From contig NZ_CP036401.1 of the NCBI RefSeq assembly GCF_004322755.1, positions 6,572,001 to 6,636,000 on the forward strand: 64,000 nt of DNA, read 5' to 3'. The position numbers and the translations under genes are program-made. The notes beneath the pieces are model-generated. The model ran no database searches. It was not told where the DNA came from and worked only from the letters and a program-made list of their open reading frames with translations. Source of the stretch: Pseudoduganella albidiflava. Its GTDB lineage: Bacteria > Pseudomonadota > Gammaproteobacteria > Burkholderiales > Burkholderiaceae_D. The first letter of the stretch is position 1, and each line of letters opens with the position of its first letter. This document shows positions 6,720 through 63,962 of the stretch, one piece after another.

Positions 6720-7065
6720 ACCTAATGCCGCTTAGTTAGCGGAATTAGATGTAGTTCGCGGCGCTAGCGGATTGGTGGCTTGGCAGGGGTTTCGCGAAAC
6801 ATGCTTCGCGCCTGCCAGGCGGTGATGGCTTGCAAGCCATCATTCCTCCGACAGCGAGCCCCCTGACGCCAACTCAAACAGTCACGCCGCCTTAACTTAA
6901 CGGCATTACCGTCTGACCCTAATGCCGCTTAGATAAGCCCACCCCAAGTGCAAATTCCGGGGTCAGACCCGGCGGGTCTGACCCCTGCCCTTCGCTGTTG
7001 GGGTGAATGCATGCGCTTCCAACGTATCGGGTAACGCTTAACTTAGCGGCATTACCGTCTGACCC
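6712..7065. repeat. Composite repeat patch between dapF and the Sel1 gene
   Basis: This gene-free stretch holds two repeat types. One is a unit with core TTAACTTA(A/G)CGGCATTA followed by CCGTCTGACC, found direct at 6891-6918 and 7037-7065 and inverted at 6713-6739 and 6920-6938. The other, at 6933-7014, is a long imperfect palindrome centred on GGGGTCAGACCC and GGGTCTGACCCC, bordered by CCACCCCAAG and TTGGGGTG. The same unit recurs at 17282-17362, at both sides of the IS110 element, and partly at 32197-32232. Between them, 6740-6890 contains short inverted pieces such as CTTGGCAGG...CCTGCCAGG and GATGGCTTGCAAGCCATC. Confidence 0.8.
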
Positions 7066-17281: not shown

Positions 17282-17362
17282 GCATGCATACACCCCAACG
17301 GCAGAGGCTGGGGTCCGACCCGACGGGTCAGACCCCGGGTTTTGCACTTGGGGTGGGCTTAT
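17282..17362. repeat. Dispersed palindromic repeat, copy B
   Basis: This is an inverted copy of the unit at 6933-7014. TGCATGCATACACCCCAAC forms one border, GGGTCCGACCCGACGGGTCA is part of the palindromic core, and TTGCACTTGGGGTGGGCTTA the other border. It lies in the 215-base gap after the hslU-linked small gene and just beyond the gspC stop, so a terminator-like role for both flanking genes is possible. Confidence 0.85.
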
Positions 17363-28344: not shown

Positions 28345-28537
28345 GAAGCTTCAGGACACGGTGAAAAAGCGAAAGTGCTGAAGTATAAGCCCGAAATGCT
28401 ACACGACGGTGAAAAAGGAGGTAAAGAGAAGTTACCGGAAAACCGGTGACAGGCACCATTTTCCGGGAAATGTTTCGAGGAAAACGGGCCTGTTACTCAT
28501 GACGCTTGCTCGAGCCGCTCTGCATGCCACTAGCGCC

Positions 28538-28571
28538 TGCATCTACCCCAACGGCAACTGCCGGGGTCAGA
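28538..28571. repeat. Dispersed palindromic repeat, left half interrupted by the IS
   Basis: GCATCTACCCCAACGGC...GCCGGGGTCAGA matches the left half of the copies at 6933-7014 and 17282-17362. Its right half lies at 29772-29819, after the IS110 element. Joining them restores GGGGTCAGACCCGACGGGTC and the rest of the repeat. Confidence 0.85.
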
Positions 28572-29583
28572 TACCGTCTTGTTTTGCAAGGCCCGAATTC
28601 AAAAAATTCGGGTCGAATGGCTTGCCAGAGCAAACCACGCCGTAAATCAAATGAACCAGCTTGCGCATGACGGCGCCGGTGACGGCCTTGGGAGCCATGC
28701 CATTGGCGCTCAGGCGCTCGGCAAAGGTCTTCAGCAAGTTGTTGTACCGCTTGGCGACCATGCCAGGCATGTACAGTGCACTACGCAGATCATTGTTGCC
28801 GATCTTGCTCATGCTTGTCCGACCGCGCACTGATGTTCCAGAGCTTTTTTGCTTTGGACTGACTCCAATAAATGCCGCAAGTGCCTTGGCCGATCCGAAG
28901 CGCCTAATGTCACCAATGTGGCCTAGGACCTTAGCTATCGTAGTGCTGCCAATGCCCGGAATACTGCGCATCAGATCGGCGTCATGTTTCAGGCCAGGAT
29001 GCCTGTCGATGTGATCGTCGATCTCCTTTTCCAGCTCGGTGATCTTTTGATCGAGCCATTTTACGTGCTCATCGACGTTTTTCACCAAGTCGGCCTGACC
29101 GGCAAAATCATGAGCTTCCATCCGGTTCTTTTCCTGTTGCCTGATGTCCTTGAGCGCAAGCAGCCGATCGCTCAAACCCTTGAGTTCACGCTGTTCCTTT
29201 GGAGGTGGCACCCAAACTGGCGGCCTCTTCGCAGCACAGAACCGGGCGATCAGCCCGGCGTCAATTTGATCGTTTTTGTTGCGGATGTTTTCGGACTGCC
29301 CAAAACCTTTGATGCAGCCTGGATTGATGACGCTCACCATAATGCCCGCATCGTGCAACCACAGAGCAAGCGGCTCGCTATAGACACCGGTCGCTTCCAG
29401 ACACACGTGAGCGCTGTCTGGAGAGACCTTCTGCTTGACCAACCATTCGACCAGTTCCTGGTAACCTTCCAGCGTATTGCTGAGCGTCTTCGATTTCGCT
29501 TTGCCACTGACCAGCAGAACAATATCGAGCTTCTTCTTGCTCACATCAACGCCAACTACCGGGGTTACTGCCATTTCCATCAT
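28567..29583 (-). CDS. IS110-family DEDD transposase/recombinase
   Basis: A 338-residue bridge-RNA-dependent recombinase by family. The N-terminal RuvC-like DEDD domain shows Asp in VGVDVSKKKLDIV, Glu in CLEATGVYSEPL and Asp-x2-Asp in NKNDQIDAGLIARF. The C-terminal Tnp20 domain shows SIPGIGSTTIAKVLGHIGD and the catalytic serine region SGTSVRGRTSMSKIGN. The start is one of three near ATGs (29583, 29580, 29574) just after GAGAGGAA. The stop codon TGA is built at the insertion junction: its T comes from the CT core and its GA from the flanking repeat. The frame is intact, so it may be active. Confidence 0.95.
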   Translation of the reverse strand: MMEMAVTPVVGVDVSKKKLDIVLLVSGKAKSKTLSNTLEGYQELVEWLVKQKVSPDSAHVCLEATGVYSEPLALWLHDAGIMVSVINPGCIKGFGQSENIRNKNDQIDAGLIARFCAAKRPPVWVPPPKEQRELKGLSDRLLALKDIRQQEKNRMEAHDFAGQADLVKNVDEHVKWLDQKITELEKEIDDHIDRHPGLKHDADLMRSIPGIGSTTIAKVLGHIGDIRRFGSAKALAAFIGVSPKQKSSGTSVRGRTSMSKIGNNDLRSALYMPGMVAKRYNNLLKTFAERLSANGMAPKAVTGAVMRKLVHLIYGVVCSGKPFDPNFLNSGLAKQDGI

Positions 29584-29730
29584 TTCCTCTCTCGTATGCG
29601 GGCTTAGCGTAAGAACGCCGTCCCAAGATACCGTACGGACTTCAATGAAAAAACAGGCAAGGCCACCTATCTGACCCACAGGCTCGAAGCCTTAATCCCG
29701 AGCGGTGTGTCCTTGCCTGGCCGGAACTGC
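29584..29730 (-). ncRNA. Putative bridge RNA of the IS110 element
   Basis: The non-coding end upstream of the transposase folds as expected. A 9-bp stem CAGGCAAGG/CCTTGCCTG (29719-29711 with 29662-29654) encloses a loop with the hairpin AGGCT-TCG-AGCCT. On either side of that hairpin lie TCGGGATT (29701-29694) and GGGTCAGA (29677-29670). The second is the exact complement of the target TCTGACCC; the first matches the other target half TCGGGTCT in six of eight positions. Further 3', ACGGTATCT (29634-29626) and ATACGAGA (29597-29590) match the two element ends. These fit target and donor guides of a bridge RNA. Ends are approximate. Confidence 0.75.
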
Positions 29731-29736
29731 AGCGGA

Positions 29737-29765
29737 AGTATCCACTGAATTGTCGGTACGCTCAA
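29737..29765 (-). promoter_or_regulatory. Promoter for bridge RNA and transposase
   Basis: On the minus strand TTGAGC (29765-29760), a 17-base spacer and GATACT (29742-29737). The -35 hexamer is only a few bases inside the element end. Transcription would start near 29730, just ahead of the predicted bridge RNA structure. Confidence 0.55.
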
Positions 29766-29771
29766 GATACG

Positions 29772-29819
29772 AGACCCGACGGGTCTGACCCCAGATTTTG
29801 CGGTTGGGGTTGGCTTATC
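29772..29819. repeat. Dispersed palindromic repeat, right half after the IS
   Basis: AGACCCGACGGGTCTGACCC followed by TTTTGCGGTTGGGGTTGGCT corresponds to the right half of the repeat at 17282-17362. One palindrome arm remains intact here. Confidence 0.85.
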
Positions 29820-29838
29820 TGAGCGGCATCTGTGCCTG

Positions 29839-30594
29839 TCACCGGTTCCACGTGGCGCAAACCGGGCAGCCGCCCGCGCGCCCCACGCCGATGCTGGTCC
29901 ACTCCATGCGCAAGCCGTCGAGCAGCAGCAGCCGGCCGGCCAGCGAGGTGCCGATGCCCATCACGATCTTCAGGGCCTCGGCCGCCTGGGTGGCGCCGAC
30001 CACGCCCACCAGCGGCGCGAACACGCCCATCGTCGAACACGCCACGTCCTCGAACGCCTGGTCTTGCGGGAACAGGCACGAGTAGCACGGCGCCTCGGCG
30101 CTGCGCGGGTCGAACACGCTGACCTGGCCGTCGAAGCGGATCACGGCACCGGAGACCAGCGGCACGCGTGCCGCCACGCAGGCGCGGTTGACGGCATGGC
30201 GTGTCTTGAAGTTGTCGGTGCAATCGAGGACGACGTCGCTGGCGGCGGCCAGTTCGGCCAGGCGCGCATCGTCCACGCGCTCGATCAGCGCGGTCACCCG
30301 CACGTCCGGATTGATCGCCGCGATCGCTTCCTTTGCCGACAGCGCCTTGGGCTGGCCGATGCGCGCCGTGGTGTGGGCGATCTGGCGCTGCAGGTTGGTC
30401 AGGTCGACCTCGTCGTCGTCGACGATCGTCAGGTGGCCGATGCCGGCCGTCGCCAGGTACAGCGCGGCGGGCGAACCGAGGCCGCCGGCGCCGATCACCA
30501 GCACCCGCGCGCCGAGGAGCTTCTGCTGGCCCTCGATGCCGATCTCGTCGAGGAGGATATGCCGCGAATAGCGCAGCAGCTGTTCGTCGTTCAT
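29839..30594 (-). CDS. moeB: MoeB/ThiF-family adenylyltransferase
   Basis: Activates the C-terminal glycine of a ubiquitin-like sulfur carrier (MoaD or ThiS) by adenylation. The 251-residue cytosolic product has the nucleotide-binding GAGGLGSPAALYLA, the DDDEVDLTNLQRQ motif and the two zinc-binding pairs C-x2-C in PCYSC and CPVC. The CTDNFKTRHAVN segment is also typical. Length matches MoeB; ThiF cannot be excluded from sequence alone. It is the last gene of the gpmA-envC-ctpA-moeB cluster, six bases after ctpA. Confidence 0.9.
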   Translation of the reverse strand: MNDEQLLRYSRHILLDEIGIEGQQKLLGARVLVIGAGGLGSPAALYLATAGIGHLTIVDDDEVDLTNLQRQIAHTTARIGQPKALSAKEAIAAINPDVRVTALIERVDDARLAELAAASDVVLDCTDNFKTRHAVNRACVAARVPLVSGAVIRFDGQVSVFDPRSAEAPCYSCLFPQDQAFEDVACSTMGVFAPLVGVVGATQAAEALKIVMGIGTSLAGRLLLLDGLRMEWTSIGVGRAGGCPVCATWNR

Positions 30595-47956: not shown

Positions 47957-48070
47957 CCGCATCCGTCACGATTTATAGCGCCAGTCTAGTTTTAGCGGAC
48001 GAAAAACCGGCTCCTTCACCGGCCTGACTGGTGCCCCAATTCATGAAGACCGACACCTGAAGGGGTGGCA

Positions 48071-63885: not shown

Positions 63886-63962
<77 letters not shown>

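Follow-up and report, generated by a model that had tools for sequence, protein, structure and literature searches.

The window, the whole 64,000-nt stretch of Pseudoduganella albidiflava DNA analysed here, very probably carries an IS110-group, IS621-type insertion sequence with a REP-targeting bridge RNA and a transposase stop codon completed by the target. The host genome is a single contig of 7.44 Mb. The element body, 28571-29771 on the minus strand, is 1201 bp long (1203 bp with one CT core), and the following features were assigned to it and its flanks:

28571..29771, minus strand: element body, delimited by a genomic palindrome that reappears when the flanks are joined and by conservation of the ends among relatives
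29772..29773, minus strand: left core CT, from the joined flanks
28569..28570, minus strand: right core CT, from the joined flanks
29772..29780, minus strand: left target GTCGGGTCT, core included, from the flank sequence and relatives
28564..28570, minus strand: right target CTGACCC, core included, from the flank sequence and the match to the right target guide
28567..29583, minus strand: transposase (DEDD, IS110), 338 aa from the ATG used, from Pfam, NCBIfam and structure matches and the stop position
29591..29771, minus strand: predicted bridge RNA region with 5' stem-loop, target-binding loop and donor-binding loop, from a covariance model built without the window
29730..29747, minus strand: 5' stem-loop CAGTGGA-TACT-TCCGCTG, in the MFE and centroid fold of the window alone
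29654..29719, minus strand: target-binding loop with enclosing stem and inner hairpin, from the fold and covariation in relatives
29694..29702, minus strand: left target guide CTCGGGATT, core written TT and not CT; 6 of 9 plus one wobble to GTCGGGTCT, weak alone
29671..29677, minus strand: right target guide GGGTCAG, pairing with CTGACCC at 7 of 7 positions
29669..29670, minus strand: handshake-guide position (AT), by analogy with IS621 positions 81-82 (PMC11208158)
29626..29634, minus strand: left donor guide ACGGTATCT, identical to the right end plus core at 9 of 9 positions
29591..29597, minus strand: right donor guide ATACGAG, 7 of 7 to CTCGTAT
28584..28589, minus strand: -35-like TTGCAA of the right end, separated in the circle by 17 bp from the -10-like TATCTT
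29764..29769, minus strand: -10-like TATCTT in the left end, part of a TTGNNN-17-TATNNN motif

The guide boundaries follow the convention of PMC11208160 and PMC11208158. The element is assigned to the IS110 group of the IS110 family: the RNA sits in the left noncoding end, upstream of the gene, and not in the right end (IS1111), and the transposase gene extends to the right end. Its product matches PF01548 and PF02371, a RuvC-like DEDD N domain and a C-terminal Tnp domain, and the NCBIfam model NF033542, 'IS110 family RNA-guided transposase' (229 bits, cut-off 140). Among solved enzymes it matches IS621 (8wt6) at E 2.7e-83 and ISCro4 (PDB 9t56), a similar IS110-type recombinase compared by sequence match alone, at E 2.8e-78. 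Its D, E, D, D and S line up by eye with IS621, where such residues are reported as D11, E60, D102, D105 and S241 (PMC11208160, PMC11208158).

Joining the flanks of the element restores the palindrome GGGGTCAGACCCG-T-CGGGTCTGACCCC, with 13-bp arms around one base, in line with the proposal of a first-pass annotation, made from the sequence alone, that the programmed specificity of the element is the palindromic repeat family. The joined flanks give GGGGTCAGACCCGTCGGGTCTGACCCC in a repeat context that agrees with another copy at 57 of 67 bases, and the insertion point is the second of the two half-palindromes of the restored unit. The paired motif GACCCNNCGGGTCTGACCC has 168 + 160 occurrences in the genome. 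The palindrome GGGTCWGACCC is present in 507 intact copies (reversed control, 0) and GGTGTCAGACACC makes up 11 of the 40 sites counted (control, 2), two figures that are not strictly comparable, as the patterns differ in length; another 28 of the 40 sites are GGTGACAGGCACC, a repeat of the CTGT type. The target repeats are high-copy short palindromes, and REP is a reasonable label for them. The RAYT link is thin: one Y1_Tnp locus of the genome, L153, has GGGGTCWGACCCC on both sides, and the other four have none within the stretch examined. Two more paired palindromes, both uninserted, lie in the window at 6960-6984 (both halves exact) and 17311-17335 (one mismatch), and a second repeat type, GTGACAGGCAC, is found on both sides of the element (28446-28456 and 29832-29842).

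The predicted RNA of the window folds more stably than its shuffles (z -2.9; 2 of 200 as stable). The left ends of 18 relatives, aligned without the window, fold to the bridge-RNA shape, and 19 of the 32 predicted pairs show at least one double-sided, pair-keeping change. Changes on both sides affect 12 of 14 pairs in the enclosing stem and three of four in the inner hairpin. Over the named stems, a set of three helices one of which contributes nothing, 57 cells changed on both sides against 16.6 in shuffles (0 of 500 as high) and 3-10 in slid controls. The bridge RNA fold that the first-pass annotation proposed to seek by covariance search was recovered: the model built from these 18 left ends, with the window left out, has a single match up to E 1 in the 64 kb, at 29591-29771 on the minus strand (143.3 bits, E 1.2e-33). 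The same model recovers 26 of 27 further loci, the exception being L129, and finds the left end of IS621 in an E. coli record (21.7 bits, E 1.6e-5), where the IS621 guides, judged by eye, land at the guide positions of the model. Rfam returned no family at the gathering cut-off over the bridge RNA region, and two matches, at E 6.1 and 9.8, when E was raised to 10; elsewhere in the window it identified a SAH riboswitch (2564-2637, minus), an int-alpA RNA (47979-48049, plus) and a tRNA (63890-63962, minus). Sequence comparison thus confirms the left end as the site of a predicted IS621-type bridge RNA with target- and donor-binding loops. The RNA itself would be about 170 nt long, since the matched stretch also takes in the -10-like box.

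On the minus strand the target loop reads CAGGCAAGG..CACC-G-CTCGGGATT-A-[AGGCTTCGAGCCT]-GT-GGGTCAG-AT-A-GGTG..CCTTGCCTG, and all strings quoted in the first-pass annotation are present on this strand. Its claim of a guide fully complementary to the target is correct, GGGTCAGA being the exact reverse complement of TCTGACCC; by IS621 numbering (PMC11208158) the guide proper would be GGGTCAG against CTGACCC, with the final A in the handshake position. Likewise, TCGGGATT agrees with the other target side, TCGGGTCT, at 6 of 8 positions as described, and under the convention used here CTCGGGATT matches GTCGGGTCT exactly at 6 of 9 positions, with a U.G pair at core position 8 and mismatches at positions 1 and 7. 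For the donor side, ACGGTATCT does equal the element's own right end; it had been placed before the CT core, which in fact falls inside the 9-mer. The downstream guide said to be complementary to the other end is ATACGAG, which pairs with CTCGTAT. Of the four guides announced as directly readable, three are therefore perfect and the left target guide is imperfect.

Mononucleotide shuffling of the 181-nt stretch, repeated 200,000 times, never produced the right target, left donor and right donor guides together in this order; 3,099 shuffles had the right target guide and one had the first two. With position left free, the left target guide is not beyond chance, as the targets of 38 of 43 other elements match the window RNA as well or better. 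At the fixed structural position the window's own left target ranks best of 49 (score 6; next best 5). The left target guide of the window is thus weak and carries conviction only where the fold fixes its position. The four pairings of an IS621-type bridge RNA can be assigned in the element, the left target guide being supported at the level of the class.

Comparison of guides with insertion sites in relatives, also suggested by the first-pass annotation, found related copies at sites that match their own guides. The left-guide comparison covered 49 elements with 34 distinct guides; L209-L212 were not included, and L122, whose left flank ACGGTATCT is identical to the donor end, was removed beforehand for that reason. 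Left guides were located in 43 of the 49 elements as the best-matching 9-mer, which favours own matches, and in six by structure. Under this procedure the match to the own left target averages 7.52 of 9 against 3.98 for swapped targets, and 5.90 against 2.47 when only guide positions 1-7 are used; for the 34 distinct guides, 0 of 20,000 permutations were as high in either test, and the same result (0 of 20,000) was obtained within the close group alone and within the distant group alone. When swapped targets were given equal search freedom (44 elements), the values were 7.59 and 6.12 of 9 (0 of 20,000), and 6.87 and 6.19 in the close group only. Among distant members there are left targets, such as GCCCACCCT, with a 9/9 match. 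In G044 a single RNA is common to the eight copies of one element, whose left matches range from 7 to 9 of 9; the right target of one of these copies, L094, is one base off.

The right target guide matches at 7/7 positions in 19 of 21 close elements and at 6/7 in the remaining two; eight of these 21 are copies of a single element. Several right-guide alleles are found together with correspondingly changed targets: (i) GTGTCAG with target CTGACAC in L002 and L003, two copies with identical guides in the window's genome; (ii) GTGACAG with CTGTCAC in L097, the same pairing being present in both G028 copies; (iii) GGGACAG with CTGTCCC in all seven G046 copies; and (iv) GGGAGAG with CTCTCCC in L140. 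The L002/L003 element is 60% identical to the window element, and both its right guide and its targets have changed in a matching way. L003 is inserted in GGTGTCTGACAC and L002 in the less perfect GATGTCTGACACC; their location at CTGACAC, despite the abundance of CTGACCC, agrees with what their putative guide would read.

On the donor side, the left donor guide matches at 8 or 9 of 9 positions in 30 of 36 elements, and in 35 of 36 the base at LD position 3, G or A, is the same as in its guide. A perfect (7/7) right donor guide is seen in 16 of 36 elements, that is, in 16 of 18 close and 0 of 18 distant ones, where 4-6 of 7 positions match. At core position 8, 13 of 18 close left guides have U, opposite a target C in ten (U.G) and a T in three (L096, L104 and L125). 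In these three elements the core guide is split: UU of the left guide matches the TT left core, and CT continues to be read by the right guide. L096, the only one of them with a readable right end, has a TT left core and a CT right core, as would follow from a left core derived from the target, a right core derived from the donor and cleavage 3' of the core. Flanks of the donor type were observed on the left of L122 (..AGACGGTATCT before the element) and on the right of L133 and L211 (CTCGTAT); these are perhaps the result of tandem or donor-donor events.

The same data bear on other explanations of the stretch. It lies directly upstream of the transposase gene, small RNAs and a structured 5' leader have been reported to regulate the ISPpu9 transposase (PMC8450116), and the left target match alone could be due to chance; that the stretch serves the transposase as a cis-regulatory RNA or structured 5' leader, with guide matches as accidental leftovers, is nevertheless very improbable, given that across 34 guides a 9-mer at one set position in the fold follows the insertion site and that right-guide alleles change together with the right target. 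We regard it as equally improbable that the recombinase itself recognises a palindrome or hairpin which the guides merely resemble as a conserved target. The right targets of the close group are nearly all CTGACCC, CTGACAC or CTGTCAC, many of them in palindromes, and transposases outside IS110 are known to target REP (PMC1525189), but two recombinases of 60% identity in one genome occupy different sites that each match the own RNA, there are distant left targets (GCCCACCCT among them) with a 9/9 match, and targeting by IS621 is RNA-programmable (PMC11208160).

A misplaced element end, with the conserved GAC after the core belonging to the element, the stop being its own and the target something else, would account for the recurrence of the right flank CTGACCC across genera. 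This is extremely improbable: moving GA into the element leaves GGGTCTCCCC as the empty site, while joining at CT restores a unit with the GACCCNNCGGGTCTGACCC motif (168 + 160 copies). Moreover, copies of one element (L088-L095) have either GACCCC or GACACC at this place, L097 has GTCACC, and L133 and L211 have CGTAT. An IS621-type bridge RNA in an element bounded at CT is the reading retained below.

With these ends, the transposase frame in the close clade is open to the last base of the element, and the TGA consists of the core T and the target GA (28569 and 28568-28567, respectively, in the window). Among the 28 close elements whose right end could be read, 23 have such a target-made TGA, corresponding to 15 distinct rows of the tree set. 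The five exceptions are L097, with its own TAA 10 nt before the core and a guide and target of the CTGT type; L135, with its own TGA and a position outside the clade in the tree; L133 and L211, where the right flank CTCG.. (CTCGTAT) is read through; and L212, with a frameshifted transposase. L098-L100 have no right end and are outside the 28 counted. Among 51 further right ends, from seven genomes and a few others and a part of the contig-edge copies, 50 read TGA and one TGG (L038, matched only over residues 110-340). Sixteen copies with CTGACAC, all from G025, entered the analysis as right ends only. At the protein level, which is all that these records cover, all 120 homologues listed of 3,777, the window's own included, end in DGI (116), DSI (2), VGI or DGT, endings that correspond to the last codons of the element. 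All 29 other elements with a right end carry a stop of their own upstream of the core; for 13 elements it is a TGA inside a -35-like TTGA.

In the tree, the target-stop rows fall in one 21-row clade (support 100/98) that also includes L097 (100/95). The target-stop label needs six changes on the tree as coded, since the clade also contains rows whose ends are unread, are broken or carry their own stop. We read this as a single loss of the own stop in the clade, the many copies not being independent. The guide-selected target would usually complete the transposase gene in this clade, and the only member whose right guide reads a non-GA site, L097, has its own stop.

Whether the stop is more than a by-product can be viewed in two ways. 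The lineage may simply live in GACCC and GACAC repeats, with a neutral loss of the own stop and an unconstrained guide. This explanation, which we consider quite possible though short of probable, is favoured by the grouping of the target-stop rows in one lineage, maybe reflecting one historical event, and by the occurrence of target-made stops in the IS481 elements ISLxc2 and ISLxx4 (PMC2516522). It fits less well with the presence in the genome of CTGT-type repeats (GGTGACAGGCACC, 28 of 40 sites) and with L097, nested in the clade, which has its own TAA 10 nt before the core and a guide moved to CTGT, a single event. We tentatively suggest, as a possible alternative, that guide RNA and transposase are coupled: the ..CTGA target chosen via the right guide UCAG would supply the stop, and the circle (ATC TCG TAT..), having no stop there, would read into the bridge-RNA gene. 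Such coupling would lock the right guide and leave the left guide free to follow the repeats of each genome, and it could make the amount or form of the enzyme differ between the circle and the inserted copy.

Beyond the circle junction, at least 24 codons of the left end are free of stops in the transposase frame in 22 of 24 close elements, compared with 10 and 0 of 24 for the other frames; in the distant group the three frames are open in 8, 11 and 8 of 21 elements. Most distances between the element start and the left guide are a multiple of three apart (66, 69, 81 and 84), with exceptions of 61 and, by one measure, 68. A coding read-through tail in the circle is not claimed, as codon-position counts gave no third-position excess (16 non-independent pairs).

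A TTGNNN-17-TATNNN motif is found across the joined ends in 30 of 36 elements, as TTGCAA-17-TATCTT in the window, and provides a putative junction promoter of the kind expected for an IS621-type bridge RNA. Excision, RNA synthesis from the junction promoter, pairing and recombination at CT are carried over from IS621, and the window element has each anatomical feature that they would require. On the observed anatomy, covariation of the fold, tracking of targets and donors by the guides, restored target and stop position, we infer a pathway in which transcription, pairing in the cell, catalysis and a constraint of the stop on the right guide are the predicted steps. Excision would join the right and left ends in a circle and rebuild a sigma-70-like promoter, from which the bridge RNA of about 170 nt would be transcribed. 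The target-binding loop would pair with both strands of the GGGGTCAGACCCG.CGGGTCTGACCCC palindrome, and the circle junction would pair with the donor-binding loop; the DEDD recombinase would insert the circle at the CT core of the predicted insertion site GTCGGGTCTGACCCC. Because the transposase frame extends through the element's final base in this clade, the GA read by the right guide (..UCAG) would also complete the TGA stop of the transposase.

Much of this is shared with IS621 of E. coli, where the RNA in the left end, the 5' stem-loop, the target and donor loops, the CT core, the junction promoter and the REP target have been described (PMC11208160, PMC11208158). The two elements differ in three respects: (i) the right guide is 4 nt in IS621 and 7 nt in the window element, longer right guides being reported in IS621 orthologues (PMC11208160, PMC11208158), (ii) the core of the left guide is here often UU, with targets CT or TT, and (iii) the transposase stop is supplied by the target in the clade of the window element. 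The main text of PMC11208160 and PMC11208158 contains no mention of a stop or termination codon. In the seekRNA elements ISEc21, ISMch6, ISEc11 and ISXne4, an RNA of the noncoding end also guides target choice, and natural redirection between relatives has been reported; they represent other subgroups and targets, and the RNA region of the IS1111 type is usually downstream of the gene (PMC11187229). ISPpu9, ISPpu10, ISPa11 and ISRm19 are likewise IS110-family elements inserted in REP sequences, though of other REP families, and guides are not considered in the accessible text of that report (PMC1525189). A transposase stop codon within the host insertion site is known from ISLxc2 and ISLxx4, which have a transposase of another family (IS481) and a duplicated NCTAGN site, with no guide RNA involved in the account available (PMC2516522).

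Earlier reports thus already describe the bridge or seek RNA, the targeting of REP and natural redirection (PMC11208160, PMC11187229, PMC1525189), and target-made stops are already known in IS481; what appears to be new here is the known mechanism in an IS110 clade where the guide-selected target completes the gene. The literature searched yielded no IS110 stop codon made by the target, which does not prove its absence elsewhere. The relatives form a natural, multi-genome series of bridge-RNA retargeting, in which one recombinase lineage is found with changed left and right guides and matching sites. This series is useful for studying mismatch rules, 7-nt right guides and non-CT cores, the latter in the three elements with a TT left core. 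If the stop coupling is true, the choice made by the guide RNA would be directly linked to the completeness of the element's own gene, and caution would be needed in reprogramming, as a non-GA target would alter the C-terminus of the recombinase.
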